33,141 nucleotides of DNA from positions 1 to 33,141 of the forward strand of contig PKUG01000006.1 of NCBI GenBank assembly GCA_002869665.1, read 5' to 3'. The DNA is from Desulfuromonas sp. (GTDB lineage: Bacteria > Desulfobacterota > Desulfuromonadia > Desulfuromonadales > Geopsychrobacteraceae). Each line of letters begins with the position of its first letter. The first letter of the stretch is position 1. The notes beneath the pieces were generated by a model that was given only the letters and a program-made list of their open reading frames with translations, did no database searches and was not told where the DNA came from. This document shows positions 15,868 through 33,141 of this stretch, in pieces. Both the position numbers and the translations under genes were made by a program.

Positions 15868-17967
15868 CTACTCTGTAACCCGGACACTGTACTGAAGCGT
15901 TCCCCAGTTCTTCACCGGTGCCGAAACTGGCTCCCCGCGGGTTCCGTACATGGCATCGGCCAGAAGTTTTTCCAATGGATTGAGAGCACCCTTGGTTCCG
16001 CGAGTTCCGACAAAACCACCCTGCTCCAACAGCGAGATATCCACGGGTTTACGTGACACCAGCAACTTGATCGTTTCTTCTCCAATCTGGTCCGTCCTGA
16101 TCCCCGCTTCGGTATCACGGGTCTCACCCTTTTCGAGCAAAGCCGCTTCGTCATCAGCATCTGCTGCAGGATAAAGAGCCTGGACTTCCCCGCGCGGGGT
16201 GACGTTTAGTAGATAAATGTAATAGTCGTTCTCATCGTTATTCGTCACTTTAAATGTCAGGATATCGCCGTTGGACAACGACTGTTGCTCCATTTCGGCG
16301 GCCGAATAATCGCCTGCAAGAGTAAAGAATGATTCTTCATCAGTCGACTCGTTGTAAATAATTCGGCAGCCAGCATCTGTCTCATCACAGGAGTCAACCT
16401 GGTGCCACAACTGAGTCGTCAGCACGAAATTCGGTGATGTTGACGAGGCAAGCTGCTTGATTTCCTTGACCCGGGCCAGCGTTTTCAGATTTCGCCGTAA
16501 CAGTTCTGTCGCCTTTTGCGGATCGGAACAGGAAATACGTAATTCATCGTTGAGTAACTCCATCGTATCCGTGAGAAGCCAGACCTGCGGCGGCTGATCG
16601 GCAAAGGATTGCGGCAGGGTGTCAAGTGGGTCAGCTTTCAGGTAGACGCCATCAACCTTCTGTGGATGCAGTACATAAAGGACAACCTCAGCCTCCTGCT
16701 GAGTCTCGACCAGTCTGTATGCCAGCAGCTGCTCATTCACCAGGCTGCTTTTGAGCGAGGAGATCAAATCCTTGTCCACACTCTCGGCATAATCACCACT
16801 AATAAACAGCGGGATCCGGGAAATATGACTGGCGTGGCTGAGTTCAACGATAAGATCACCGACAGCTAAATTTCCAGATACTTCGGCGACACTGTAAAAA
16901 GGCCTGACTCTTGTGACCGTCAAGGTCGGCAGACTGTCCGGGTCAGAATGATCCGGGACATAGAGGCGATAAACGGATCCGGCAGTGACGCCGGCCAACG
17001 AACCTGCTTTAAAGCTTGCGGTTTTACCGTCGACGGACACACTACTGATCGCGATCCGGGGGGAAATTTCACCGACAGCACCACCGAAAACCGCCTGCTG
17101 TGCCATTTTCCCTCGCAACTGAGGGAGTTGTGACTTCCGACGCTGCGTAACCTTGGCATAGGTTTTACGGAACACATCCTGCCAGGTTTCACCAGGGTGG
17201 GCCTGACGCAAGGCCTGAGCCCAGAACCAGGTAAACAGGCCATAAATCTTTTCGTCTTCATTGGAAAATTCACCGGCCGCTTCCTGATCGCGAGCCGCAC
17301 CGATAATCACACCTGCGGAAAGATCTCCTGTTACGAATGTTTGTTTGCCGAGCGGGTGCTCACTCATATCCTTTGGCGCAGCCCGAACGGCTGGTGTTTC
17401 GCCCCGAGTCACCGAAGCCGAGTGGCACGAATCGGAAACCAGCACGACCTGACCCGCCTTTTCGAACAATGGAATTAACCATTCGTGTAACTCGTCATCA
17501 AGAATGTCGTAATCGTCAAGCCCCTGCCCTTCGGGTTTCCTGGAACCATAACTGACCCAGGTCTGATCATAATCACCCGGCTCGTCGCCATTCAGGTCCG
17601 GCGTATAGGAACCATGGCCGGAATAATGGATATAGACAAAGTCCCCGGGGTCAATACGGCGAACAAGCGCAGCAAAGGCATCTTTGATTTTTGAATGACG
17701 TGCCTGCTCGTCCAGCAAAACCTGGACATTATCGTCGGTAAAGCCAAAGCGCTCATCCGTCAACACTTCACGCATCAGTTCGACATCGTTATGTGTCCCC
17801 TGAAGTGACGCCAGGCCACTCACAGAATAATCAGAGATACCGATTAACAAAGCATGCTTCGTTGGACTTTTTGCCCGTGTTTGTGGGACCTCCGCCAGCA
17901 CGATTGATGGCAACGTGGCCATGGCGACAGCCACCGAAACAAGAAAAAGCAGGACAATACGCAACAT
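15868..17967 (-). CDS. exported caspase-like (C14) protease with DUF4384-like domain
   Basis: 699 residues from the ATG at 17967 (GGGAG 7 bases upstream). A signal peptide covers residues 1-25 (cut near VLA/EV). A caspase/metacaspase domain follows at about 36-300: KHALLIGISDYSV, catalytic His118 in YIHYSGHGSY and Cys181 in VLVSDSCHSASVTRG. The middle is beta-rich with no match I recognise. Near residues 565-655 is a DUF4384-like domain (GDILTFKVTNNDENDYYIYLLNV, PRGEVQALYPA), often found with bacterial caspase-like proteins. Such proteases are usually Arg/Lys-specific cysteine peptidases; the substrate here is unknown. The signal peptide implies an envelope role. It is the last gene of the CHASE2/FecR/caspase run, 95 bases after the PPC-like gene. 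Confidence 0.88.
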   Translation of the reverse strand: MLRIVLLFLVSVAVAMATLPSIVLAEVPQTRAKSPTKHALLIGISDYSVSGLASLQGTHNDVELMREVLTDERFGFTDDNVQVLLDEQARHSKIKDAFAALVRRIDPGDFVYIHYSGHGSYTPDLNGDEPGDYDQTWVSYGSRKPEGQGLDDYDILDDELHEWLIPLFEKAGQVVLVSDSCHSASVTRGETPAVRAAPKDMSEHPLGKQTFVTGDLSAGVIIGAARDQEAAGEFSNEDEKIYGLFTWFWAQALRQAHPGETWQDVFRKTYAKVTQRRKSQLPQLRGKMAQQAVFGGAVGEISPRIAISSVSVDGKTASFKAGSLAGVTAGSVYRLYVPDHSDPDSLPTLTVTRVRPFYSVAEVSGNLAVGDLIVELSHASHISRIPLFISGDYAESVDKDLISSLKSSLVNEQLLAYRLVETQQEAEVVLYVLHPQKVDGVYLKADPLDTLPQSFADQPPQVWLLTDTMELLNDELRISCSDPQKATELLRRNLKTLARVKEIKQLASSTSPNFVLTTQLWHQVDSCDETDAGCRIIYNESTDEESFFTLAGDYSAAEMEQQSLSNGDILTFKVTNNDENDYYIYLLNVTPRGEVQALYPAADADDEAALLEKGETRDTEAGIRTDQIGEETIKLLVSRKPVDISLLEQGGFVGTRGTKGALNPLEKLLADAMYGTRGEPVSAPVKNWGTLQYSVRVTE

Positions 17968-17986
17968 TCATCAACTCCCGAAGACA

Positions 17987-18021
17987 AGAGCCCCGTATCA
18001 ATCAGATCGATACGGGGCTCT
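17987..18021 (-). terminator. 13-base-pair hairpin between the PPC-like and caspase-like genes
   Basis: A perfect 13-base-pair stem (17987-17999 with 18009-18021, loop of 9) lies 41 bases past the PPC-like stop and 19 bases before the caspase ATG. The exit on the minus strand is TGTCTTCGG, only weakly T-rich. It may be a partial terminator or an mRNA-processing structure that lowers expression of the protease relative to the upstream gene. Confidence 0.5.
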
Positions 18022-18062
18022 ATATTCACTCAAGCAGCATATCAACTAACGCGGTAAAGACA

Positions 18063-18761
18063 TTAGTTTGTCAACAGCACATAGTTCGAATAAACACTTC
18101 GACCGAGGTTCTTGATCTTGATCTTGAACGTGCCGGTCCAAGCGGGATACCAACTAACGTAGCACTGATCAGTTGCGTCCTCATCACTTTCGATCAGGTT
18201 GCCATTCTCATCATAAATGAAGAGATCGAGATCGTTGTCGCCATCACCGAGAACGGCGACTTCGGCCAGTTCATCCCCTCTAAAAGTAATTTCATAAACA
18301 TCGGTAGCCCGAGGATTGACACGATCACGATGTTCATTCGGGCCGGTAATATCACCCTTGGTCCCTTGGGCCTGCTTCTCCGCGTCGATCATTGCGAGTA
18401 GCTGAACGTCATCGCCAGCCATTTCTTCGGCTTCTGCCAGCATCGCATCTCGGGTAGCCAATGCGCCCGATGCTTTCTCTGCAGCTGCAGTTGCATCACC
18501 CTCTACCCCTTTGTCGAGGTCCACATCAACCGCTGCTGCATTGCGCAGAATCTCAGCAGCAACCAGCATCGCCTGAGCGTTATCGTTAGCCCGTGCATAG
18601 GCCGCCAACTCGGAAGCCAGTGCGGCAGAAGAGACCCCCTGGCCGGCAGCAGAGGCACCTGTCTTGTCACTGACATTGGATTTGTCAGCAGCAAAACAGA
18701 CAGCAGAAGCGCCCAAGATAAGCGCACAAGATAACAAAATCATTAAATAAGTCTTTTTCAT
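18063..18761 (-). CDS. small exported protein with C-terminal PPC-like domain
   Basis: 232 residues from the ATG at 18761, 7 bases after AGGAG; an ATG two codons earlier is too close to that site. The signal peptide is MKKTYLMILLSCALILGASA, ending near CFAADK. A long alanine- and acid-rich helical region (residues about 40-140) looks like stacked helices. The C-terminal 90 residues form a beta-rich PPC-like (pre-peptidase C-terminal) domain, with DVYEITFRGDELAEVAVLGD, the acidic DGDNDLDLFIYDENGNLI calcium-type loop and FKIKIKNLG. PPC domains commonly accompany secreted proteases. Placed between two caspase-like genes, it may be a partner or adaptor; that is inference. A candidate promoter precedes it. 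Confidence 0.75.
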   Translation of the reverse strand: MKKTYLMILLSCALILGASAVCFAADKSNVSDKTGASAAGQGVSSAALASELAAYARANDNAQAMLVAAEILRNAAAVDVDLDKGVEGDATAAAEKASGALATRDAMLAEAEEMAGDDVQLLAMIDAEKQAQGTKGDITGPNEHRDRVNPRATDVYEITFRGDELAEVAVLGDGDNDLDLFIYDENGNLIESDEDATDQCYVSWYPAWTGTFKIKIKNLGRSVYSNYVLLTN

Positions 18762-18804
18762 AAACATTCTCCTATAAAATAGTTGAGTAGAGGTGTCATG
18801 TCTA

Positions 18805-18831
18805 ATTACTAAACATCTCAAGAACTGTCAA
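18805..18831 (-). promoter_or_regulatory. candidate promoter upstream of the PPC-like gene
   Basis: A perfect TTGACA (18831-18826) lies in the AT-rich gap after the propeller-caspase gene. The best -10 is AGTAAT at a 15-base spacing, which is short. A second set, TTGACC (18886-18881) with TATATG 18 bases on, is also possible. The small gene could thus be transcribed independently at higher level. Confidence 0.4.
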
Positions 18832-18898: not shown

Positions 18899-21800
18899 TC
18901 ACGGTTTAACAGATAGATAGAAACCATCAAGCAATTTATGAAAATCAAACAGGCCCGGCTGCTGAACCTTGAGAGTTTCCCGCTCTTTCTTTTTCCCCCA
19001 GAACACCGGCGCCCCTCTCCCCTGAGAAACGAAACGATCGTCCCTGATCTCACTGTAAAGATCGGGGACTCGCTTCAGACCATAGTTCAGCCATTCATCC
19101 ACACTGATACGGTCATCCTGCGGACTAAAATCCGCCAGCCATTCTTCAAGCCCTTCATTGATCAACGAATAAGTCAACATTCCGTGATCCAGTTGATCAC
19201 TTTCAAAAGCGACTGCTTCGGCCTGACTCGCTGCGAGGATACGCATCCCCTTGTCGTACGCCAGTTGCCCAAGTCCGCGGCTGCCCATCGGGCCGGGTTT
19301 AAAACCTTCTCCCTCGACACTGGCGGCTGAATTACAGGCATCAATAATCATGATACTTTCACCAGCATCGACATCACGCAGCCAGTTTGACAGCTCTACA
19401 CTGGACACCGTCTTTTCGAAGAGTTCAGCGTCAACCCGACGGGTATCACCACGACCGATATCATACGGAAACAGGTGAAACTGACCGGCCTGATCGACGA
19501 TGCCGTGACCCGAGTACGTTATCAGCAGCAGGTCGTCAGGTGTCGCCGTCGGCAGGTCAGGAAAGACTGCCGGCAACTTAGCGTCTAGCGAGGTCGACAC
19601 CTCTTTGCCAGCCAGTTGCGCAAAAACGACCTCGATGACGGCTGACGTCACCTTCGGCAACTCAGCTGACGGGGCCTGTGGTTGATCTGCATGAGTATCA
19701 GAAATCAATGGTATGGTTATAACCTCTGAGAAGGCGCCTGTTTCTTGCAGTCGCGACTGGAGAACGTCAATCATAGCCCGGGCATCATTCGCCGCATATC
19801 GCAGGTTCCATGACGGGTTCTCATAGGCATTCATCCCTAGCCCAATGATGATGGCTCGCCTGTGTCCTGAGCCAGAACTGGATGCGACATCCAAACGCTT
19901 CCTCGCGGTTTCACTCTTTATTCCATCCTCGTTAAAAGCGTACGTAGAAAATGTTAGCCCTTGCTCTCCGGTCGAGGTCGGCAGGAGGATATCATCAAAC
20001 AGCAGACGCCGTTTTCCGCTCTTTTGATCGATCTCAATCCGGCAGTTTTCATCGGGGAAATAGGCAACCAACTGATCGTTACGGAACACTTTCAAATCAT
20101 GAACTTCAGTCTGCTGCGACTGCCCGGTGTCAGGTCGTTTTGTGGCAATTTCAATTTCAACAGTAGCCGTGCGACCATCCTCAGCTGGTTTGACTTCAAC
20201 AATCTTTACCAGTGGCTGCTCGCGATTCAGTGTTTCAAGCTGACGGATCTCAGGAAAATTCTCATGAGCGATCAGCCGTGGCAACAGCCGTGGTTCGTAA
20301 TACTCACGCATGAAGATTTCAACTGGCCGGGGAGTAAAAGGCTCGTCGGCAAGAACCCAGGATAAACCGGGCAAGTCTCCAGGATCACTGGCATCGTAAC
20401 GACCGTCGACGGCAACGACAGCCCAATGTCCATCGATAAAATCAAGCAGACGGGCGACCTGCTTAAACTTTTCATGCTCCAGCACCTGGATGCTGCCATT
20501 GGCCAGGACAACCGCGAGCAGTGTTCCATCATCGCTGAGTGTCAGATCCCTGGCGGGGGTGGCAAGATCCAGAGACCTTTGATCTTCCGGATCAGCAGGA
20601 TCGAGTGATGTCAGCTTTCCGCTTGACCCCAGGATTACGAGCCGACCTGAATTCTCTTCAACTGCGGCTGCTGGCATCTCCCCGAGATTAACCTGACCGA
20701 TACTGTCCTGATGATTCAGATCAAAAATCCCGGTCTGATTATTCCAGGCAGCACCGAGAATGTAGTTCACAGCAACGCCTTTGAACACTGGAATGAACGA
20801 CTGGGCTTTCATTTGTGTCAAGAACTGCATTGATGAGAGGAGTTCACCTTTAGTGGTGTCGAGCAGTCGAATCTCATCTGTATTTCCCGTAACGACGAGT
20901 GTCTTTTCGTCCCCACTGAAGTAGATATTCGATACAGCGAAAGGCACCCTTGTTCGCCACAATTCCGTCGACTGATTCAGATCGTAAGCCACGATCTGCC
21001 TGCCTACATTTGCCATGACAAAGATTGACTCATCAGCAGAAAACCGGAAGGCATCAAACGACGACGATGTCAGCTCTTCATTCGCCTTGAGACAGGTTCT
21101 CTGTTGGTCACGGTCATAAATGATCTGTTCTTTATCACCGAACAGATGGAGCATCTTACCCTTGGGTGAAAAACCGTACCGATTGGTCGGATTATAAATA
21201 AACTCTCCGGACTGGGGATCGGTCACAAAAGTATTGAGAGTAAACATTTCACTTTCGCCACGGGTCGGATGCCAGAATTTGAACGTCTGCCGGGTTTGAT
21301 CAGCCTCGGCGTACATAACACCCGAAGCATTTCGGTAGATTTGTGAAAAGTTCGGCATAAACGAAGGAATACGTTTTTCCACGCCCCCTTTTTCCAGGTT
21401 CCACACCGTAAAGCCATCGGCACGCTTGACGATAAGGCGCGTATGGTCCGGTGAAAATCGGGCCGAATCGACGGCTGTCGTAAAGGCCGTCAGGGAAATC
21501 AGATTGTTTTTTGAGAAATCGAGTACGTCGGCAAAAGCATTATCAAAATCGTGGGTAATGACGAGCTGCTGTCCTCCCCGGGCAAAGGACATCCCTGAAA
21601 TCTCTGCAATTGAACCCGGCGCTCTCCAATTGATATAGCCAGCCACAGAAGGGGGATCGGTACTGAGGTCTATGGTGACAATTCTGTCATCGGCTCCGGC
21701 AGCAACGACAAGAGAGCCTTGTGGTTGAACTGCAACGGCGCGTATAGACTGAAGGTCGGTTGGGATGGTTCCGAGAACTGAACGATTAACCAAGTCATAG

Positions 21801-23515
21801 ATCAAAACATCCGTTTCAGTGGCTGCAACCAACAAGCGGCTGCGCGGGTCAAAGGCAATCGCCTTAACCTCCCCGCCAAGCCCCTGAATGGTCATATCAA
21901 CCTGCCCGGTCTCCGCATTGATCAGCGCAATATCACCATGCTCAGTCGTACACGCAGCTTTCAGGCCGTCAGGAGCCAGCACCATTGGTGCAGATAATGT
22001 CCGACTGTCTTCAATTTCAACGGCAACAGGCTCTTCCGAACCATCAAGCGTGTTATGAGTAAAAAAATCTGATCCGACATCGTAAGACAGCGAGACATAC
22101 CTGTTACCATCAGCATTAATAAGAACATCATTCCCCCAGGCAGCCCAACCCGCACTGTTTATCATGGTTGCCGGCATGTCGTTCAGCGCCCAGACGAATG
22201 ACCCGCTGTGGGTCAAGATGAGCAGCTCATGACGAATGGGATTGAAGGTCATCGATTCAATGTAAGCCGTTTGATTCAACTGCTGGGTGAGATCCAGCTT
22301 ACGGATTGCTCTGCCGTTCTCAAGGGCCCAGAGCCAGATGGTCCCCTCGATATCTGCCGTGGCCAGCAATTCGCCATCGGCGGAGACAGCGTGCGCCATG
22401 ACTCTTCCCGCACTTCCCGCCTGTACGACAAGAGATTGTTCTATAAATTCATCCGGGGCCTCACTGACCCAGCCATCAGCATTGGTACTGAACAATAAAG
22501 TTTGATACCGTCTGTTCCGCTCCTTGACAATGGCGACCAGTTCCCCAGCAGCGGAGATCGTCCCATACCGAGCAGTTCCCGAAATCTCCAGCGACTGTTC
22601 GGCAGGCGATTCAAAAGGTGACCAGACCCGGGCCTGCTCCTTTTCAAGCAAAAGAACTTTATCGCCATAGAACGACAGATCCGCTGCAATGAAATCGGAT
22701 ATCGGGATCTGCGCAAGGACCTGACCATTCAGGGCGTTGATGAGCAGGCTGGTTCCATCGGAGTTGCCGCCGACCTGGATAAAATTCAACAGTAAACGCT
22801 GCCCATCTGCCGACAAAAGCGCCTGAGAGACATAACCCTCGGGCGTTTCCCTAAGAGACCATCCACCTGTCTTATTTACCAGGTCATAGCTATAGACGGA
22901 ATTGTCATGACTCAGATAAACAACGCCTTCGTCCGACACGGCGATCGGTTCGGGAGGCGCTGACCAACCTGAACTCTCGCCGGTGTCCAGTTTCAGGGAA
23001 TTGCTGTCGTAGCGAACAGGCTTTTCGTCCGCCAGTACGACCATCAGACCGCTCATCAGTTCGCTGAACACCACGTAACGACCGGAAGGCGAGTTCAGTG
23101 TTTTAAAAAAACTGTTCCCCATCAATGTCGAGGCAATTTTCTCATTGAACGTCCCGTTTTTACTGATAGTTATCCGTCGCAACAAATCGGATTCAGCGAC
23201 CAGGATTTCGGCACCATCGTTGACAAATCTGGACGACATACTCAGTCCCCCCTCAAAAGGGATACGCATCTTAATTTGTCCACTATGAAGATTCTGGCGG
23301 ATAAAGACACTGCTGTTTAAGCCGTCCCCATAGATGCCCGACAAGTTGTCATCCGCAGAAATAACCGGTGCAGCAAAAGGGAATCCGTGGTCTATCTCGG
23401 CGACCGGATGGCGAAGAAAAGTCTGCGCATCAGCACGGGTGGAAAACGGAAACAAACCCGACAGAACAAAAGCGAAAAGAACCGGCAACAACCGCCAGTG
23501 AATGAGTTCAGACAT
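18899..23515 (-). CDS. giant exported beta-propeller protein with C-terminal caspase-like domain
   Basis: 1538 residues from the ATG at 23515 (GGAACGGAACT upstream); an upstream in-frame start is ignored because MSELIHWRLLPVLFAFVLSG begins a signal peptide, ending near TRADAQ. Residues about 40-1100 are repeated WD40-like blades, for example VKAIAFDPRSRLLVAATETDV, IRAVAVQPQGSLVVAAGADD and LTLSDDGTLLAVVLANGSIQVL, enough for two or more propellers. A C-terminal caspase domain starts near residue 1218 (HRRAIIIGLGMNAYENP), with His1337 in LLITYSGHGIV and Cys1394 in MIIDACNSAAS. Propeller domains usually bind partners, so this may be a scaffolded or target-sensing protease. It follows the FecR-like gene by 79 bases. 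The substrate is unknown. Confidence 0.88.
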   Translation of the reverse strand: MSELIHWRLLPVLFAFVLSGLFPFSTRADAQTFLRHPVAEIDHGFPFAAPVISADDNLSGIYGDGLNSSVFIRQNLHSGQIKMRIPFEGGLSMSSRFVNDGAEILVAESDLLRRITISKNGTFNEKIASTLMGNSFFKTLNSPSGRYVVFSELMSGLMVVLADEKPVRYDSNSLKLDTGESSGWSAPPEPIAVSDEGVVYLSHDNSVYSYDLVNKTGGWSLRETPEGYVSQALLSADGQRLLLNFIQVGGNSDGTSLLINALNGQVLAQIPISDFIAADLSFYGDKVLLLEKEQARVWSPFESPAEQSLEISGTARYGTISAAGELVAIVKERNRRYQTLLFSTNADGWVSEAPDEFIEQSLVVQAGSAGRVMAHAVSADGELLATADIEGTIWLWALENGRAIRKLDLTQQLNQTAYIESMTFNPIRHELLILTHSGSFVWALNDMPATMINSAGWAAWGNDVLINADGNRYVSLSYDVGSDFFTHNTLDGSEEPVAVEIEDSRTLSAPMVLAPDGLKAACTTEHGDIALINAETGQVDMTIQGLGGEVKAIAFDPRSRLLVAATETDVLIYDLVNRSVLGTIPTDLQSIRAVAVQPQGSLVVAAGADDRIVTIDLSTDPPSVAGYINWRAPGSIAEISGMSFARGGQQLVITHDFDNAFADVLDFSKNNLISLTAFTTAVDSARFSPDHTRLIVKRADGFTVWNLEKGGVEKRIPSFMPNFSQIYRNASGVMYAEADQTRQTFKFWHPTRGESEMFTLNTFVTDPQSGEFIYNPTNRYGFSPKGKMLHLFGDKEQIIYDRDQQRTCLKANEELTSSSFDAFRFSADESIFVMANVGRQIVAYDLNQSTELWRTRVPFAVSNIYFSGDEKTLVVTGNTDEIRLLDTTKGELLSSMQFLTQMKAQSFIPVFKGVAVNYILGAAWNNQTGIFDLNHQDSIGQVNLGEMPAAAVEENSGRLVILGSSGKLTSLDPADPEDQRSLDLATPARDLTLSDDGTLLAVVLANGSIQVLEHEKFKQVARLLDFIDGHWAVVAVDGRYDASDPGDLPGLSWVLADEPFTPRPVEIFMREYYEPRLLPRLIAHENFPEIRQLETLNREQPLVKIVEVKPAEDGRTATVEIEIATKRPDTGQSQQTEVHDLKVFRNDQLVAYFPDENCRIEIDQKSGKRRLLFDDILLPTSTGEQGLTFSTYAFNEDGIKSETARKRLDVASSSGSGHRRAIIIGLGMNAYENPSWNLRYAANDARAMIDVLQSRLQETGAFSEVITIPLISDTHADQPQAPSAELPKVTSAVIEVVFAQLAGKEVSTSLDAKLPAVFPDLPTATPDDLLLITYSGHGIVDQAGQFHLFPYDIGRGDTRRVDAELFEKTVSSVELSNWLRDVDAGESIMIIDACNSAASVEGEGFKPGPMGSRGLGQLAYDKGMRILAASQAEAVAFESDQLDHGMLTYSLINEGLEEWLADFSPQDDRISVDEWLNYGLKRVPDLYSEIRDDRFVSQGRGAPVFWGKKKERETLKVQQPGLFDFHKLLDGFYLSVKP

Positions 23516-24503: not shown

Positions 24504-25943
24504 CTAGCTCTCTCCATGGAATCGGGCATGCAGATTATGCTCAAATTTCGCCGCCATCTCATGCAACTGAACACCGACCAACGGGATGACAAAATCAAGC
24601 CAGACACCATGCTTGAATAACAGGAAACTTATGGGTAACAGGATGACAACAACACATGCGCCCGAGAGCAGCATGCCCCAGAAGGAATCAAGCCAGGCAA
24701 AGGCCAGACTCATCACCGTAATCAGAATCAATTCGATAAGAAACTTCAGCCACGACGGTGGTGGCGAAATCTCGCGATGTTGCAGCAGGGAGTTGATCGC
24801 ATTGATCAGGATCAACGCTCCCGGCATTTCCCCGATCGGCGTCATATGCAGATCGCGGCTGTCGGCGTAACTGGCACCGACAACAACCACACGGTTCTTC
24901 AGCCAGGAATTATCAACCGCTCGCTCTGTCGCAACGAGAGGCCAGACCGAGCGCTGAATCAGGACAGGATCGCCGAACTTACCGTTACCGACATGCGCTA
25001 CGGACTTCCCCCCCTCTGCGGCATAAGGAAAGCGGTAGAGAATACGCTGCTGCAGCGGAGTCGGATTCAGACTGAGGGTCAGGTTCGAGAGTTCAATCAG
25101 TTCATGATTTTTATAAGATCCATCAACGTAAGGGACTAATTTATTGATTATTTTATCATGAACATCAGAATGAGACTGTGTTGACTTTTGTAACAACGCC
25201 GTTGCCAGCAGTTGAATTGAGGGAACCGGCTCAAGATTGCCGGCTGAATTCTCTGCCCGGGTCCAGAGTTGCCAGCGCCGTATTGTATAATCCGTGTCAC
25301 GCAGGAACAGTGTCGACGCCCAGAACACATTGGGCTTTTGTTCAATCAAAATATCGAGAAAAGATGCACGCTGTTCGTTGCGTGCGGGATCGCGCAGTGA
25401 CGTACGAAAAGTCCGCACCAGGATCAATGGCGGAGCATCTTCAGGATAGTCCTCGACAAAACGACTGAACGCGCGGTCTTCTTCTGGATTATGACCGGCA
25501 AGAGCAACCTCGACATCGACGAAAACCAGTTGAGGCTGACCGGAAACCGCAAACTCAATGATCCGAAGCAGATCACCCCGAGGTGTATAAAAGGGTTCCC
25601 CCCAGAAACGATAGGTTTTTTCGTCAATATTGAGGAAGGCATAGTGAGCTTTTGCATCTTCGACAATTCCGGAATTCATTCGGATCATCCAGTCAATGCC
25701 GGATTCTTCCGTATCGCGCAGCCAACGGGTATCGTGAAAAAGATGCAGTCCGATAGCGATCAACACGCCGACCAGCACATTCACCATGACAGGGCGCCAG
25801 AACTCAGGTCTGGCCACCCACCAGTCACGCCCCTTACCAAAAGCTGGAACCATGAGCCGGGTCGGCCACGTTCTGGCGGCAAGCTCAAGGAGTTTGCCGA
25901 TCAAAAGGAATTGCAGAATCCAGCGACTAAGACGGCGAAACAT
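24504..25943 (-). CDS. CHASE2-domain membrane protein without output domain
   Basis: 479 residues from the ATG at 25943, with TTGAGG 6 bases upstream. A membrane span lies at about residues 48-70 (VMVNVLVGVLIAIGLHLF), then a large periplasmic CHASE2 sensor (DWMIRMN, AFLNIDEKTYRFWGEP, PQLVFVDVEV, NRVVVVGASYADSRDLHMTPIGEMPGALILINAINSLL), then three closely spaced spans near the C-terminus. In most CHASE2 proteins these spans lead into a cyclase, kinase or GGDEF domain. Here the chain ends about 25 residues after the last span (LHEMAAKFEHNLHARFHGES), leaving no room for one. It is the first gene of the run and fused by TAGATG to the FecR-like gene. The ligand is unknown. Confidence 0.87.
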   Translation of the reverse strand: MFRRLSRWILQFLLIGKLLELAARTWPTRLMVPAFGKGRDWWVARPEFWRPVMVNVLVGVLIAIGLHLFHDTRWLRDTEESGIDWMIRMNSGIVEDAKAHYAFLNIDEKTYRFWGEPFYTPRGDLLRIIEFAVSGQPQLVFVDVEVALAGHNPEEDRAFSRFVEDYPEDAPPLILVRTFRTSLRDPARNEQRASFLDILIEQKPNVFWASTLFLRDTDYTIRRWQLWTRAENSAGNLEPVPSIQLLATALLQKSTQSHSDVHDKIINKLVPYVDGSYKNHELIELSNLTLSLNPTPLQQRILYRFPYAAEGGKSVAHVGNGKFGDPVLIQRSVWPLVATERAVDNSWLKNRVVVVGASYADSRDLHMTPIGEMPGALILINAINSLLQHREISPPPSWLKFLIELILITVMSLAFAWLDSFWGMLLSGACVVVILLPISFLLFKHGVWLDFVIPLVGVQLHEMAAKFEHNLHARFHGES

Positions 25944-26050
25944 CTGAGACCTCAAGACAAAGACAGATTCAACAGCGGATCAATAGGAAATGAATTTACT
26001 CGAATATAGTTATGAGGTCAAAGAAAGGTTATCCATCATCAAGCGTAAAC

Positions 26051-26087
26051 AACAACGGGCTCTGCAATGACTGCAGAGCCCGTTGTT
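26051..26087 (-). terminator. strong intrinsic terminator after the TolC-family gene
   Basis: A perfect 16-base-pair stem (26051-26066 with 26072-26087, 5-base loop) lies 21 bases past the TolC-family stop. The minus-strand exit is GTTTACG, while the plus strand ends in TTTTG. It probably insulates the CHASE2 operon from the outer-membrane factor gene. Confidence 0.75.
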
Positions 26088-26108
26088 TTGGAAAATTCAG
26101 CGTGACAA

Positions 26109-27575
26109 CTATTTGAGCCAGGGTTGCGGCTGAACCTCGCCGTTCAGGAAAATCGCATCAGGAATCCCCTGGGCTGGGCAAAACTGATCGCTGACATTCC
26201 TTTCCGGCAAACCACCCAGCAGGGTAACGGCTGCATCCTCCTCACTGAGCAGCCCGAGGATATTCATCAACTGCCCCATATTCGCAGCAGAACGGGCGTA
26301 CGCGAGAACATAATCGTAGGACGCCATGGTATAGGCGCGTCGGGCATCGAAATACTCGTTTTCAGTGTCAAGCAGGTCGAGCAGAGTCCGCTGGCCGATT
26401 TCAAACTGATCACGGTAAATTTCCCGGGTTTTGGCACTCGACTCCTGATGCTGTTTGAGATAGGCAAGCTGCTGGTCGAGAAAGTCGATATCACGGAGCG
26501 CGATTGTCAGTTCCTGGCGGACATTACGGCAGATTTTATCGCGCAAATCGACTGCACGATTATACAAGTGCAGGAACTGCGAGATTCTCGCTTTGTCACT
26601 GGCACCGCGATAAAGGTTAAAAGTCGCAACCAGTTCGACCACGGTTTCACTGCTGTCACCGGAAATCCTGTCGCGGTCTTCACCGAAAGAATGGTGAGCC
26701 TTAAAATCGAGGCGAGGCTGATATAGTGCTTTGCGCACCAGCATGGCACTGTGAGCAGCCGTCGCCCGTTCAAAGGCAGCAGAAACCGCCGGATTATCGA
26801 CAAAAGCGACTTGTAATGCTGTTTCGGTATCAGAAGGGATGACCGTGGAAAGAAGTTGACTCGGTGGCTCGAGGGCATAACCGGGGAGTTCACCAACCAA
26901 CCGCAAAAAACGACTGGAGACGTCGTGGAGATTACTCGATTCGGTTCTCCGATTGGCACGTGCCAAGGCCAATCGACCTTTGGCCTGGTCGAGATCGACA
27001 CCGCGGCTGATTCCGCTGCTCACGCGATCTTCAACCTGCTGATAGATACTCTCATGATGGCGCAGATTCTCATCAGCATAGGCGAGCAGACTGCGATAAC
27101 GCAGGACATCAAGGTAAGCATTGACAACTTCAAGGCTGACACCTTCCATCTCGGCAAGCAGTTGATAGAAGCTGACAAGCTTTTCCGCCTCCAGTCGCGC
27201 GACTTCGTTTCTTGTCTCAAAGCCGTCATAAAGCATCTGAGTCAGTTCTATTTTGCCTTCCCAGGGCTTGAAGCTGTTATCAATACCGTTGTCACGATAA
27301 ACAGCATGCCCTGCCCTCGCTGTCAGATCAATGCTGGGCAGATATTTGCCGCGCGCGGCATCCTGTTCTCTGGTCGCTGCCAGGAACTCCTGGTAGCTGG
27401 CCAGAACATCAGGATTGGTCACCAGCGCACGCTGAACCGTTTCTGCCAACGTGTCCAACACACCATCAGCGGTAAGGGGGGTAAGAATAGTGTCGATAGG
27501 TTGGTATTCAGCTCGTGCGGTAAAAGGAGATGCGAGCAACAGCAAAGTGACTATCAGGATGTTCACCCTCTTCAT
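26109..27575 (-). CDS. TolC-family outer-membrane factor (LapE-like)
   Basis: 488 residues from the ATG at 27575, with GGAGG 6 bases upstream. A signal peptide ends near ARA/EY. The protein shows the duplicated TolC pattern of long helices and short strands: VQRALVTNPDVLASYQEFLAA and GKYLPSIDLTARAG in the first half, then FVDNPAVSAAFERA, RKALYQPRLDFKAHH and VATFNLYRGASDKAR in the second, with EIGQRTLLDLLDTENEYFDARR. It would form the outer-membrane tunnel of a type I secretion or efflux system. Its divergence from lapG-lapD and closeness to an RTX adhesin make a LapE-like role, exporting that adhesin, most likely. The ABC and membrane-fusion partners are not in the window. Confidence 0.9.
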   Translation of the reverse strand: MKRVNILIVTLLLLASPFTARAEYQPIDTILTPLTADGVLDTLAETVQRALVTNPDVLASYQEFLAATREQDAARGKYLPSIDLTARAGHAVYRDNGIDNSFKPWEGKIELTQMLYDGFETRNEVARLEAEKLVSFYQLLAEMEGVSLEVVNAYLDVLRYRSLLAYADENLRHHESIYQQVEDRVSSGISRGVDLDQAKGRLALARANRRTESSNLHDVSSRFLRLVGELPGYALEPPSQLLSTVIPSDTETALQVAFVDNPAVSAAFERATAAHSAMLVRKALYQPRLDFKAHHSFGEDRDRISGDSSETVVELVATFNLYRGASDKARISQFLHLYNRAVDLRDKICRNVRQELTIALRDIDFLDQQLAYLKQHQESSAKTREIYRDQFEIGQRTLLDLLDTENEYFDARRAYTMASYDYVLAYARSAANMGQLMNILGLLSEEDAAVTLLGGLPERNVSDQFCPAQGIPDAIFLNGEVQPQPWLK

Positions 27576-27782: not shown

Positions 27783-28496
27783 ATGATCAGAACCGTCATC
27801 GACAGACGACAACAGACCAGCGAGCGATACCGGTTCATTCTGGGAGGAGTTCTCGTACTGATTATTACGGGTCTGGTGGCCTTGTCCCCCCTCGCAATGA
27901 CGGCCAATCAAACAAAAATGCTGCAACTCGCCGACGAACGCTATGGCAAAACCGGCATTTACGCTGTCAATAGTTGGCTGCGATTACAGAACGAGTGCGC
28001 AAGTCTGCCGATTGACCAGCAGCTTGATCGTGTGAACAGTTTTTTCAATGAAAGGACACGTTACGTTGATGACCGCCTGACCTGGGGGCAGGACGATTAC
28101 TGGGCAACACCCCTGGAGACCCTCGGGATGGGTCAGGGTGACTGCGAAGACTTTTCATTTGCCAAGTATGTGACACTGCATTTACTTGGGGTTCCGGTAG
28201 AAAAATTGCGGCTGACCTACGTCAGGGCGCGGCTGACGACGATCGATGGAATCAGGAATCAGGCCCACATGGTTTTGAGTTATTACCCCACTCCTGACAG
28301 CCCCCCGTTAATACTCGACAGCCTGCGCAGTGAAATTATGCCGGCGTCACAACGCAGCGATCTTTTCCCGATATTCAGCTTCAACACTGAGAACCTCTGG
28401 ACCAACGGAGCAGCGGCACCAGCGGGCAATGCAGTCACCCGTCTCTCCCACTGGCGGGATGTCCTGCGCCGCATGCATGAAGAAGGTGTAAATTGA
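27783..28496 (+). CDS. lapG: LapG-type periplasmic cysteine protease
   Basis: 237 residues from the ATG at 27783. One N-terminal span (residues about 19-39) anchors or exports it. The bacterial transglutaminase-like cysteine peptidase fold follows, with the catalytic triad visible as Cys121 in GMGQGDCEDFS, His162 in QAHMVLSYY and Asp179 in LILDSL. WGQDDYWATPLETL just before the Cys is typical. In Pseudomonas LapG cuts the N-terminal retention domain of the LapA adhesin after a di-alanine and releases it from the cell surface; calcium is required. It is followed 50 bases later by lapD on the same strand, the usual pair. The adhesin cleavage site lies beyond the window. Confidence 0.93.
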   Translation: MIRTVIDRRQQTSERYRFILGGVLVLIITGLVALSPLAMTANQTKMLQLADERYGKTGIYAVNSWLRLQNECASLPIDQQLDRVNSFFNERTRYVDDRLTWGQDDYWATPLETLGMGQGDCEDFSFAKYVTLHLLGVPVEKLRLTYVRARLTTIDGIRNQAHMVLSYYPTPDSPPLILDSLRSEIMPASQRSDLFPIFSFNTENLWTNGAAAPAGNAVTRLSHWRDVLRRMHEEGVN

Positions 28497-28546
28497 TGCG
28501 TAACAGCTTGAAGGCAAACAGATACGTTGACTGAAAGGTGACTACC

Positions 28547-30457
28547 ATGACCCTGAACAAGCAGTTGTGGATTGCGATCATCGTCGTTCTCCTGCTGGCG
28601 CTGAGCGGAACATTTGTCATCAGCACGCTCACGGCGCGGCATTACCTGATCCAGCAACTCTATCTGAAGAATCAGGACAATGTCAGTTCACTGGCCTTGT
28701 CGATCTCGCAGCTCGACAAGGATCCCGTAACCCTCGAATTATTGGTCAGCGCCCAGTTCGACAGTGGTCATTACAGCTTTATCCGTATCAGCGACACCAC
28801 TGGCAAAGTTTTGATTGAACGCAGTAACCCTCCCGTCGACTATCAGGTTCCCGACTGGTTTCAAAGCCTGGTCCCGATCTCGATAGCGCCGGGCACCTCC
28901 CCTATCCAGGATGGCTGGAATCTTTTCGGCACTCTGACCCTGCAAAGCCACAGCCGCTTCGCCTATGAATCACTCTGGCAACAGACTAAAAACCTGATGT
29001 TCTGGTTTCTGGTCGGGCTGATTATCTGTGGTGGTCTGGGCACCATCATCCTGAAGAAGCTCACGACGCCTTTACGTGCGGTTATCGATCAGGCCGAGGC
29101 GATCGGCAACCGCCGCTTCATCCGCACCGCAGAGCCGAAAACCTTCGAGTTCCGGATGCTGGTGATTGCCATGAACAAGCTGTCGGGCAGGATTCAGCAA
29201 ACATTACAGGAAGAAGGCACTCGCTACGAACAATTGCGCAGTGCATCACATCACGATGCATTGACCGGGCTGCTGATCCGCGAGCAGTTCATCAACCAGT
29301 TCGAAGCGCGCCTGTCACATGACGACGACAGTGCCTCCGGCACCTTTATGATCATTCATCTCAACCGCATCGACGCTCTCAACAACAAGTTCGGTAGAGC
29401 TGCAATCGACTCCCTGTTGAGAAACATTGGCCGGGCACTGCTTGACTTCACCAACCGACATCCCGGATCAATTGCCGGCCGTATGAACGGAACGGATCTC
29501 GCACTTCTGGCCTGCGGCTACAGCAATGCAGAAAACATTACCGGAATGATCGCCACGGAACTCAGGCAGTTGTTGCCCGAACAGGAAATCAACGATGAAC
29601 CGCTGCTGCCGTTGGGCGCCACGACATTCCACTACGGTGAGTCGATTGCTACAGTTCTTGCCCGCACCGACAATGCGTTGGCAGCCGCGCACCAAAAGGG
29701 TGCTCTGGATGGCAACATTACCTACCCGGAAAACTACCCTGCGACACTGACCACCCAAGCCTCCTGGAAGAAGGCGCTGATCGCCGCTCTCGCTGATAAC
29801 CATATGTCATTGGGACATTACCCTGTCCTCGATGCAGATCGAAACCTGTTGCATTTCGAAGCACCTGCCAGAGTTATAATCGACGACAGCTGGCAGAATG
29901 CCGGCCTCGTCGTCCCGATCGCGGCCCAAAATGGCCTGCTGCCGAAATTTGACCTGTGTGTCGTTCAAACTGCCCTGAAAAAGATCAGCAGTGGCAATCA
30001 GCCGCTCGGGATCAACCTTTCCCGCCAGTCAATTACCTCTCCGGAATTCTGTTCCGAAGTTGCTGCGCATTTACGCTCCAATCTGGAAACCTGCAAGAAT
30101 CTGTGGCTTGAAATTCCTGAATACGGTGCCTATCTGATTCTCGATGCTTTCAAAGATTTTTGCGATCTTGTCAAACCACTAGGCGTTAAAGTCGGGATCG
30201 AACACGCTGGGCAGCATTTTTCCAGAATCGCAGATCTGCATGACCTGGGGCTCGACTATATCAAGATCGACGTCAGTCTGATTCGGGATATCACGACAAA
30301 GCCGGCCAACCAGATGATCGTCCGCAACCTGTGCACTATTGCCCATTCGATCGGCATTACTGTCATTGCTGAAGGGGTCAGGACTCAGATTGAAGCAGAC
30401 TGTCTCCCCGGCCTTGGTGTCAATGCCATGACCGGCCCTGCCATCACGCTCGAATAA
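28547..30457 (+). CDS. lapD: LapD-type c-di-GMP receptor with degenerate GGDEF and EAL domains
   Basis: 636 residues from the ATG at 28547; a GTG 9 bases upstream overlaps the AAGG site. Order: span 1 (about 8-27), periplasmic LapD/MoxY-type domain, span 2 (about 149-170), HAMP, GGDEF-like (about 236-390) and EAL-like (about 400-636). The GGDEF signature is replaced by RMNGTDLALL, so no cyclase activity is expected. The EAL domain lacks the catalytic set (HFEAPARV for EAL, EHAGQHF for DDFG-type) but keeps GINLSRQSI and YIKIDVSLI. Periplasmic DGWNLFGTLTL holds the Gly-Trp near position 124 comparable to the LapG-binding loop of known LapD. It would bind c-di-GMP in the cytosol and sequester LapG in the periplasm. 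Confidence 0.93.
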   Translation: MTLNKQLWIAIIVVLLLALSGTFVISTLTARHYLIQQLYLKNQDNVSSLALSISQLDKDPVTLELLVSAQFDSGHYSFIRISDTTGKVLIERSNPPVDYQVPDWFQSLVPISIAPGTSPIQDGWNLFGTLTLQSHSRFAYESLWQQTKNLMFWFLVGLIICGGLGTIILKKLTTPLRAVIDQAEAIGNRRFIRTAEPKTFEFRMLVIAMNKLSGRIQQTLQEEGTRYEQLRSASHHDALTGLLIREQFINQFEARLSHDDDSASGTFMIIHLNRIDALNNKFGRAAIDSLLRNIGRALLDFTNRHPGSIAGRMNGTDLALLACGYSNAENITGMIATELRQLLPEQEINDEPLLPLGATTFHYGESIATVLARTDNALAAAHQKGALDGNITYPENYPATLTTQASWKKALIAALADNHMSLGHYPVLDADRNLLHFEAPARVIIDDSWQNAGLVVPIAAQNGLLPKFDLCVVQTALKKISSGNQPLGINLSRQSITSPEFCSEVAAHLRSNLETCKNLWLEIPEYGAYLILDAFKDFCDLVKPLGVKVGIEHAGQHFSRIADLHDLGLDYIKIDVSLIRDITTKPANQMIVRNLCTIAHSIGITVIAEGVRTQIEADCLPGLGVNAMTGPAITLE

Positions 30458-30519: not shown

Positions 30520-30849
30520 TCAGGCAATGTCCTCGGCTTCGTCACCGAACAGACACAGCCGATGCGAGCGCTCCCTCAGGCAAAGGCGTTCTAACAACTT
30601 GTGCTGGGCTTCTTCCGGAAAATCGGTAAAACGGATCACCCCACGCGACACAAGCAGTTCAATCAAGTCTTCCAGCACCCGCACCATCGGCAGGTCCGAT
30701 TTTGCCAGCGTATCATTTTCGCCAACCACCAATTGACAGAATTGAGCAAGCTCGGGGGCCTGTGAGTCGACCGCTTCCCTGCAATCCTGATTCTCTTCCA
30801 GGCTGACTGAAACGATTCGGCCTGTATCATCTCTCTGAACATAGATCAT
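30520..30849 (-). CDS. small conserved protein downstream of the adhesin
   Basis: 109 residues from the ATG at 30849 (GAGGG about 8 bases upstream). It begins MIYVQRDDTGRIVSVSLEE and ends in a helical part, MVRVLEDLIELLVSRGVIRFTD, followed by FPEEAQHKLLERLC. I recall similar short proteins in gammaproteobacteria labelled tryptophan synthase beta subunit-like; nothing here resembles a PLP enzyme, so that name should not be read as a function. There is no signal peptide or membrane span, so it is cytosolic. It lies 14 bases downstream of the adhesin stop and is co-transcribed with it. The role is unknown, possibly linked to adhesin expression. Confidence 0.75.
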   Translation of the reverse strand: MIYVQRDDTGRIVSVSLEENQDCREAVDSQAPELAQFCQLVVGENDTLAKSDLPMVRVLEDLIELLVSRGVIRFTDFPEEAQHKLLERLCLRERSHRLCLFGDEAEDIA

Positions 30850-30863
30850 GATTATACCCTCGC

Positions 30864-33141
30864 TCAATCTGTGATCAGCTTGCCACTGTCAACAAGATGA
30901 TTGATGATGTCCTGATCCGTCGCACCTCCCAGATCCGTCAGGTCGACGTCGTTCAGCACGATGGTCTGGTCGACTTTAGAGGCAATTGCAGCGGCATCGT
31001 CCGTATCGGTAAATGCCCCGCTGCTGCTGATCTGAATGACCGCATCCCCATCCACGTTGGTGTCGAAGCGCAGATAGTTGATCAGGTCACTACTTTCTTC
31101 GCCAATCAGCAGATCCGCCAGGTTCAAGATATCACCACCATTAGCAACCGTAGCAGTATCGAAATCGGTGATTGTATCAACGGCCGAATCACCTGCGGTG
31201 CCCTGATCGTTCAGTTCCCATTGGAAGACATCGACACCTAAGCCACCGGTCATGGTATCGTCACCCTCGCCACCGATCAGGAGATCGTCCCCGTCGCCAC
31301 CGATCAGGATATCATTCCCACTGTCCCCTATCAGCTCATCATCGCCATCGTAGCCGATAATTGTCGCGGCCTGATCAGTGCTGGTTTCAAGGGCATCGAC
31401 ACCACTGTCATCACCGTCGGTACCGTGGATGATGATATGATCATCTGGACTGAGAAGAATCTGGATACCATCTTCAACATATGCAGTGTCACCATCGCCA
31501 TCAAACACTTCCAGATCAAAATTCATGGTGAGCGCATCGCCAGGGATAAAGGCGGAAGCACCGAACCCCTGCAATGAGAACGACTGGTCGGCACCATCAA
31601 CAAGACCGGTCAATTCGAGAGTTTCATTGACATAGGCATCACCATCAACATAGGCATACTCGATTGTGGTGAAGCCGTCGACCGTGTAGACCACGACAGA
31701 ATCATTGTTTTTCAGTCCGGAGATCGTCACTGTTCCATCGGCTTCGAAGATGACCATGTACCCATCTAACGGATCAACATCATTGACAGTATATTCGACA
31801 CCATTGATTTCGACCTTGGTGATCGTGTCAACCGTATCATTGTAGATATCGCCTACATTGTCAGGATCTTCATTCTCGGTATCAAGGACAAAATCAGCGT
31901 CATCATAGGCTCGTATATTTACACTTGAGATCTTACCCGGGCTTACATAGAAGCTGGTTTCAGCACCATTAACCAGGACATGATTATCGAAGTGCAAATC
32001 AACAGTCGCCTCAGTGTAGCCGGTGGAAGCAGGAGTGCCAGTAAAATCTTCTACAAAATCAACCCTGATAGTTTCATCAAGACCAACATCCTGACCGCCA
32101 CCACCGCTACTACCGCCGGTAACACCAACACGGTTCGCCGTTCCGTTAATCCGTCCAGACTCACCGGTTTCGGTGTTACTTAACAACGGAGTCACCACAA
32201 CATCCGGCAGGTTGTAACCGGACAGGTCTTCATAGTAGGCGAAATCCGTGTTACCACCAACAAAGTTCCAGGTTCCGGTCGTGGTACTGAAGTCACCGAT
32301 ACCACCATCAATCTGGCTGAACAGCTCGAACGAATAGGTATCAGCCAGCGTACCCAGATCGGCGTCAAGGCTAAGCGTTGCGACAAAAGCTGTCGTTTCT
32401 GGCACGGTATTCGGGTTACCATCATCATTAAGCAGATAATCCGCATAGGCATCAAAGAAATCATAACCGTCATTGGGGTCGAGTATCGAGCCTATAAGAA
32501 TCAGTCCATTCGTATACAGATAGATATCCTGACTGCTCGTCGTATATTCCGACGGACTGATTATGCCGGTGACAGGATCGGGCTCAGGTACGACGAAGCG
32601 AACCGTACCCGTCTGATCGGCGCCGTAGTTGTCATCGACATTTATATCGATATCCAATGGCAATCCGGTAATCGATTCTCCTATGTTGTTTACGATGTAG
32701 CCTGGATCGGGATCAATGACTGATGGCTCATCGTCAAGGATAGCGAGCGAGCCATCAACAATGGTCAGTTGTTCGAAATTCCCACCACCATTCGTAAAGT
32801 CTACGGTTATCGACTCAACTATGACACTATCTGTCGGGCTACCGGGCGTGCCATGGTTTGTAACCGGAACATCAAACGTTGTCGATGCCACCGGCGTGCC
32901 TGGCACGTAGCTTGTGTCAAATGTTATCGTCTCGCCATTGGAAAGCGTCACCACGAGTTCCGTTTGAGGAGTATTGCTGAGTGTAGCCGTAATGAACGCA
33001 TCTGTTGTCCCATCCAGATATTCCACATTACCTAAGGTCAAGATTGTAACGTCAGCGTCATCAACGACGTCCGTCAGCGCAGGCGTCGTATCGTAGGTCA
33101 GATCCTCGAAGCTCTCCCCTGGACCCGCGGCTTCCGTCGCA
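30864..33141 (-). CDS. giant RTX adhesin, C-terminal 758 residues (LapA-like; continues past the right edge)
   Basis: The frame is open to the edge; the first in-window residues (ATEAAGPGESFEDLTYD) are internal, so this is not a complete gene. From the edge inward it has an Ig-like adhesin domain (PALTDVVDDADVTILTLGNV onward), further acidic beta-sandwich modules rich in Asp, Gly and Thr with almost no cysteine, glycine-rich linkers, and calcium-binding RTX nonapeptides (GGDGDDLLI, GGEGDDTMT) encoded at 31242-31360. It ends with a type I secretion C-terminal target domain (DVFQWELNDQGTAGDSAVDTITDF). Such proteins leave the cell through an ABC-MFP-TolC channel and mediate attachment. lapG, lapD and a TolC homologue next door make this the likely LapG-controlled substrate. 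The N-terminal retention module lies outside. Confidence 0.92.
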   Translation of the reverse strand, partial: ATEAAGPGESFEDLTYDTTPALTDVVDDADVTILTLGNVEYLDGTTDAFITATLSNTPQTELVVTLSNGETITFDTSYVPGTPVASTTFDVPVTNHGTPGSPTDSVIVESITVDFTNGGGNFEQLTIVDGSLAILDDEPSVIDPDPGYIVNNIGESITGLPLDIDINVDDNYGADQTGTVRFVVPEPDPVTGIISPSEYTTSSQDIYLYTNGLILIGSILDPNDGYDFFDAYADYLLNDDGNPNTVPETTAFVATLSLDADLGTLADTYSFELFSQIDGGIGDFSTTTGTWNFVGGNTDFAYYEDLSGYNLPDVVVTPLLSNTETGESGRINGTANRVGVTGGSSGGGGQDVGLDETIRVDFVEDFTGTPASTGYTEATVDLHFDNHVLVNGAETSFYVSPGKISSVNIRAYDDADFVLDTENEDPDNVGDIYNDTVDTITKVEINGVEYTVNDVDPLDGYMVIFEADGTVTISGLKNNDSVVVYTVDGFTTIEYAYVDGDAYVNETLELTGLVDGADQSFSLQGFGASAFIPGDALTMNFDLEVFDGDGDTAYVEDGIQILLSPDDHIIIHGTDGDDSGVDALETSTDQAATIIGYDGDDELIGDSGNDILIGGDGDDLLIGGEGDDTMTGGLGVDVFQWELNDQGTAGDSAVDTITDFDTATVANGGDILNLADLLIGEESSDLINYLRFDTNVDGDAVIQISSSGAFTDTDDAAAIASKVDQTIVLNDVDLTDLGGATDQDIINHLVDSGKLITD
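31242..31360 (-). repeat. 27-base repeats coding for RTX nonapeptides
   Basis: The DNA repeats in 27-base units (for example CGCCACCGATCAGGA at 31268 and again 27 bases on), matching nine-residue RTX units GGxGxDxLx. About four to five units are visible. These bind calcium and drive folding after type I secretion. Confidence 0.85.

Follow-up and report, generated by a model that had tools for sequence, protein, structure and literature searches.

A predicted exported WD40-propeller caspase encoded beside an output-less CHASE2 receptor in Desulfuromonas

Organization of the locus

The window analysed here is a stretch of 33,141 nucleotides from a Desulfuromonas sp. contig. The gene of interest, casp1, lies in a same-strand row with the order TolC, hairpin gap, CHASE2, FecR-like partner, casp1, PPC-like gene, second hairpin, casp2. 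The main features are as follows.

15868-17967, minus strand: casp2, exported C14 and DUF4384 protein, 699 aa, His118 and Cys181 (Pfam and inspection)
17970-18040, minus strand: strong hairpin of 16 pairs separating casp2 from the PPC-like gene (-34.9 kcal/mol, z -6.50)
18063-18821, minus strand: exported PPC-like protein (PPC by eye only; no Pfam match)
18899-23515, minus strand: casp1, exported WD40-propeller, beta-sandwich and Peptidase C14 protein, 1538 aa
23595-24503, minus strand: exported partner of CHASE2, remote FecR-like, 302 aa (no Pfam match; profile comparison)
24504-25955, minus strand: CHASE2 receptor with no cytosolic output domain, 483 aa (Pfam and hydropathy)
25993-26021, minus strand: promoter-like site TTGACC-17-TAAATT ahead of CHASE2 (no clear excess of such sites over shuffles)
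26040-26105, minus strand: likely terminator separating TolC from the CHASE2 unit, a strong hairpin of -31.8 kcal/mol (z -6.65)
26109-27575, minus strand: TolC-type outer-membrane channel, part of a conserved Lap locus and outside the caspase unit
27783-28496, plus strand: LapG-type periplasmic cysteine protease of the Lap locus
28538-30457, plus strand: LapD-type c-di-GMP receptor of the Lap locus
30520-30867: 115-aa protein of the Lap locus, between the LapA-like gene and LapD
30864-33041, minus strand: RTX / type I secretion adhesin (LapA-like), C-terminal part, near the contig end

The gap of 153 bases between TolC and the CHASE2 unit contains a perfect 16-pair hairpin followed by a U-rich stretch, a likely terminator that would bound the caspase genes as a unit of their own. 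The hairpin at 17970-18040 may likewise set casp2 apart in expression. Signal peptides are present on casp1, the FecR-like partner, the PPC-like protein and casp2, and all the other products of the casp1 cluster are exported or membrane proteins. In the CHASE2 protein one hydrophobic helix lies at the N-terminal end and two or more at the C-terminal end, with no additional domain; its lone long soluble domain sits between the membrane helices and is predicted to face the same outer compartment as casp1. Pfam gave no match to FecR (PF04773) on any of the five partner proteins compared (see below), and a search for solved-structure homologues of the 302-aa partner gave nothing significant. A joint profile of the five partners nevertheless finds two true FecR proteins weakly (E 4e-4 and 8e-4), so that a remote relationship of the partner to FecR is probable.

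LapG and LapD are retained in nine genomes of the order, most of which also have the remainder of the Lap locus. Within the stretches read, the caspase unit is absent beside Lap in all nine, and the genes beyond TolC vary from genome to genome; on this comparison the caspase unit is best regarded as accessory, inserted beside Lap. The hairpin, together with the Lap loci that have no such unit, led us to reject co-transcription with TolC and a Lap role for the unit as the main reading. In most of the Lap loci read (the window and L240-L248), the LapA-like gene is separated from LapD (or LapG) by one for a protein of about 110 aa.

Architecture and catalytic residues of casp1

From the N-terminus, casp1 consists of a signal peptide, WD40 repeats over about 1000 residues, a linker of beta-sandwich type and a Peptidase C14 domain.

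23426-23515, minus strand: signal peptide, residues 1-30, cleavage between ADA and QTF (inspection and hydropathy)
20351-23368, minus strand: about 22 WD40-like blades, residues ~50-1055 (Pfam, PDB sequence matches and Foldseek; eye count)
18902-19852, minus strand: C14 domain and tail, residues ~1222-1538, with a QQPGLFDF tail (Pfam; motif comparison)

The reading frame (23515-18899, minus strand) opens with ATG and is free of internal stops over its 1538 codons. An alternative TTG start, 13 codons upstream, would give a protein of 1551 aa; the ATG is preceded by a weak GGAAcGGAAct, and no such site lies ahead of the TTG. The signal peptide is retained with either start. By inspection, residues 1-30 form a Sec signal peptide, with the n-region MSELIHWR, the h-region LLPVLFAFVLSGLFPF and an A-D-A/Q site, and hydropathy identifies the h-region as the sole strong hydrophobic stretch of the protein. 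Export of casp1 is well supported by this predicted signal peptide, by the N-termini of its relatives (see below) and by the exported or membrane character of the other cluster products. The first-pass description of an exported 1538-residue propeller protein, with some 1000 residues of WD40-like blades and a His1337/Cys1394 dyad, is thus upheld in frame, signal peptide, repeats and dyad. The count of about 22 blades, made by eye, corresponds to approximately three seven-bladed propellers.

Pfam places Peptidase_C14 on casp1 at 23.6 bits, barely above the cut-off of 21.4. Against this narrow score, the dyad (His1337 in GHG, residues 1336-1338, and Cys1394 in DAC, residues 1392-1394) is invariant in nine members of the casp1 clade, beyond chance. 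Two further residues invariant in these nine, D1244 and D1392, are putative acidic S1 residues by sequence motif and fall by that motif at the positions of Asp95 and Asp211, the acidic S1 residues of TbMCA2 (PMC4357240). By analogy with TbMCA2, cleavage after Arg or Lys would be expected. Casp1 is probably an active cysteine protease of peptidase family C14 (orthocaspase-type). A further motif, KPGPMG-x2-GLGQ, occupies residues 1406-1417, C-terminal to Cys1394. Membership of the EACC1-associated caspases (NF047832) is not indicated, the score of 48.1 bits lying below the NCBI cut-off of 140.

AlphaFold models of casp1, made from two-row alignments, have pLDDT values of 44 and ~47 (46.7), a level of confidence at which propeller number and caspase fold are not readable. 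In these low-confidence models Foldseek recognizes mid-protein propellers and a beta-sandwich ahead of the caspase part; the fold-search matches of the C-terminal model (pLDDT ~47, low confidence) include no caspase.

Relatives of casp1

A search of 136 genomes in the rest of the order found no close relatives of casp1, only weak and partial ones. In the class (277 genomes), clear relatives are present in G174, G244, G143 and G216, with 37-45% identity over the C-terminal part; another is found outside the class, in an Acidobacterium (L015). Further relatives (35-41%) lie on plasmids of Sulfitobacter, Bradyrhizobium and Rhizobium. Close to the start of the frames as called, each of the 20 WD40-caspase relatives compared has a hydrophobic, export-like stretch, in some of them with a lipoprotein-like Cys. 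The predicted exported propeller-caspase, which the first-pass annotation had called unusual, is on these relatives and their N-termini a recurring type and no oddity; indeed, WD40 repeats and probable signal peptides had already been published for prokaryotic metacaspases (PMC3501461).

In a tree built on the C-terminal parts of the WD40-caspase relatives, casp1 falls in a ten-row clade (support 100/100) of class members, the Acidobacterium protein and the alphaproteobacterial plasmid copies. Nine of the ten, spanning several phyla, keep His1337, Cys1394, D1244, D1392, the KPGPMG-x2-GLGQ motif and Q-x-P-x-L-F near the C-terminus; the tenth row, from Sinorhizobium, has a long branch and is without the clade motifs. 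The tree and the lack of a close relative in the rest of the order would favour sporadic gain of casp1. Base composition was uninformative as to horizontal transfer, the GC and GC3 of the caspase unit matching those of the neighbouring genes.

The closest known proteins are the plasmid-encoded WP_114889215.1 (Sulfitobacter sp. SK012), WP_166354696.1 (Bradyrhizobium barranii) and WP_233938858.1 (Rhizobium leguminosarum), labelled in RefSeq as 'caspase family protein' or 'WD40 repeat domain-containing protein'. They share with casp1 an export-like N-terminus, WD40 repeats, C14, the KPGPMG motif, the QxPxLF tail and the same ten-member clade, but are shorter (1202-1388 aa against 1538 aa) and, unlike casp1, lack an annotated CHASE2 gene in the surrounding sequence that was read. 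A WD40-caspase without the CHASE2 module is likewise found in the Acidobacterium and in other genomes, so proteins of the casp1 type can work alone. On the Rhizobium leguminosarum plasmid (L208:1-15604), five caspase genes and a lysozyme gene are found in 15 kb.

Output-less CHASE2 genes in other genomes

With the CHASE2 protein of the window and its profile as queries, output-less CHASE2 genes were found in four further genomes (G008, G174, G150 and G494, the last from another class of the same phylum), making five with the host. The same exported partner, about 300 aa long, lies close to the CHASE2 gene in all five. An exported CHAT or C14 protein is also near the gene in 5/5 genomes, as judged with CHAT and C14 profiles whose building sets contain the test loci, compared with 0/40 control loci. 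The controls were CHASE2 loci of the order with longer proteins (frames of at least 600 aa, taken as output-fused from that length), with 10-19 kb read at each; neither CHAT nor C14 was seen within the sequence read. In a check outside its building set the C14 profile found 17/18 C14 or C14-like loci, and the CHAT profile, checked on a few loci, also caught CHAT proteins in L019 and L133 that Pfam confirmed. Linkage of the output-less CHASE2 gene with the partner and with a predicted exported CHAT or C14 protein is thus well supported.

An exported CHAT protein, in some cases together with caspases, is present in each of the four further modules. G008 has in addition a TPS exoprotein and a ShlB transporter. 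The G174 module comprises CHAT, a TPR protein, an M48 peptidase, a casp2 relative (43%) and a trypsin/PDZ-type protein (by eye), while in that of G150 CHAT is accompanied by WD40-caspases, encoded on the same strand and contig, and by a sigma-factor-like gene. No obvious adhesin gene was seen near the G494 and G150 modules. At L202:1570-12247 the row consists of a TPS exoprotein, a ShlB transporter, an exported TPR-CHAT protein, an output-less CHASE2 and a FecR-like partner, an arrangement that may connect the module with two-partner secretion; a plasmid search with the L202 CHASE2 relative gave one weak match.

A possible role in the envelope

Bacterial caspase and CHAT proteins are mostly viewed as cytosolic cell-death or defence effectors. 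For casp1 we tentatively prefer, at somewhat short of even confidence, a different role: an exported, probably active C14 protease that serves as the periplasmic effector of a CHASE2-centred envelope module. The CHASE2 domain of the membrane receptor would sense a cue in the envelope or outside and pass the signal to the FecR-like protein and the protease, both exported; with no output on the cytosolic side and with exported partners, the receptor would have to relay this signal outside the inner membrane. The propellers of casp1 may hold substrate or partner proteins, which the C14 domain, presumably under CHASE2 control, would cut after Arg or Lys. Other genomes would use an exported TPR-CHAT protein instead of the protease. 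The wider proposal, that output-less CHASE2 and the FecR-like partner form a periplasm-only module controlling an exported effector of clan CD, for which CHAT and C14 are interchangeable, is possible but more doubtful. Against a module, only five genomes have it, four of which have CHAT, and not a casp1-type protein, as the exported protein nearby, although G174 adds a casp2 relative and G150 adds WD40-caspases on the same contig. If the proposal is true, caspase-type proteolysis would be a receptor-controlled envelope process.

A less likely arrangement is that casp1 is a free-standing envelope protease, acting in turnover or processing of exported proteins, with its position in the CHASE2 unit incidental; most clade relatives, including the Acidobacterium and plasmid copies, indeed have no CHASE2 gene beside them, but incidental position fits poorly with the 5/5 against 0/40 linkage described above. 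The adjoining LapG, LapD, TolC and RTX adhesin, together with the TPS exoprotein and transporter beside another module copy, could be taken to mean that casp1 is an extra processing enzyme of the Lap adhesin, trimming LapA or the TolC machinery. This is improbable in view of the strong hairpin between the two, the nine relatives with Lap genes and no caspase unit in the stretches read, and the modules of G494 and G150 with no obvious adhesin gene nearby. We give equally little weight to casp1 as a pseudo-enzyme scaffold with functional propellers and a purely structural C14 domain: the C14 score is weak and orthocaspases with altered catalytic residues are known (PMC6426788), but the His, the Cys and both putative S1 Asp residues are invariant in nine members from several phyla.

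A weapon or self-lysis factor, acting at the cell surface or on neighbouring cells, would accord with a general proposal for extracellular prokaryotic metacaspases (PMC3501461) and with the lysozyme gene and several caspases of the rhizobial plasmid cluster; the unit has, however, no recognisable immunity gene, toxin domain or secretion signal beyond Sec, and we regard this role as no more probable than that of a scaffold or Lap enzyme. Defence against phage or other invaders is the least probable of all. PADLOC returned a weak match to its generic caspase model (23.4 bits) and a match in the WD40 region only, with no partner genes of a known anti-phage system, and casp1 carries an export signal and lies among housekeeping and Lap genes. 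The export-like N-termini of all 20 relatives and the exported or membrane cluster products point the same way, in agreement with the first-pass argument from the signal peptide against a cytosolic cell-death or defence role.

Relation to known systems

The simplest reading of casp1 is that of a receptor-controlled periplasmic protease, which would be functionally like LapD-LapG but built of unrelated parts. LapD-LapG is a precedent for receptor control of a periplasmic cysteine protease (PMC4359373, PMC5231407), and in both cases a membrane receptor is paired with such a protease. LapG is, however, transglutaminase-like (C93) whereas casp1 belongs to C14, and LapD reads cytosolic c-di-GMP whereas the CHASE2 receptor has no cytosolic domain. 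In the BiofilmReg FecR and CHASE2 histidine kinase operon (PMC5192318), an exported FecR-domain protein adjoins a CHASE2 receptor, as here; that receptor is a histidine kinase, while the module CHASE2 has no output domain and the pair stands beside exported proteases.

Prokaryotic metacaspases with WD40 repeats, probable signal peptides or CHASE2 were noted in 2010 and 2012 (PMC2853523, PMC3501461). Asplund-Samuelsson (2012, PMC3501461) reported WD40 in 10.9% of them and also helices at the N-terminus, probably signal peptides. The surveyed WD40 orthocaspases have the C14 His-Cys dyad and WD40 repeats, like casp1, and an extracellular location was suggested for some (PMC3501461, PMC2853523). 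In the CHASE2-metacaspase fusion of Trichodesmium, from the same surveys, a cytoplasm-facing protease is predicted, whereas casp1 is a separate exported protein. What seems new is the gene set around casp1, the exported WD40-caspase build itself being common. The open-access literature yielded no report of CHASE2 with CHAT, of CHAT with two-partner secretion or of CHASE2 with FecR and a caspase, nor an earlier description of the casp1 clade with its motifs; the CHASE2, FecR-like and CHAT-or-C14 gene set seems not to have been described before. A recurrent gene set that puts caspase and CHAT proteins on the outer side of the inner membrane, next to a receptor, would give this large unassigned protein group an envelope role, and the module offers a defined receptor-protease pair for testing.

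The PPC-like/casp2 pair has a second copy in the host genome (G000, contig C159, L016:7660-10699), with 55% and 45% identity by BLAST.
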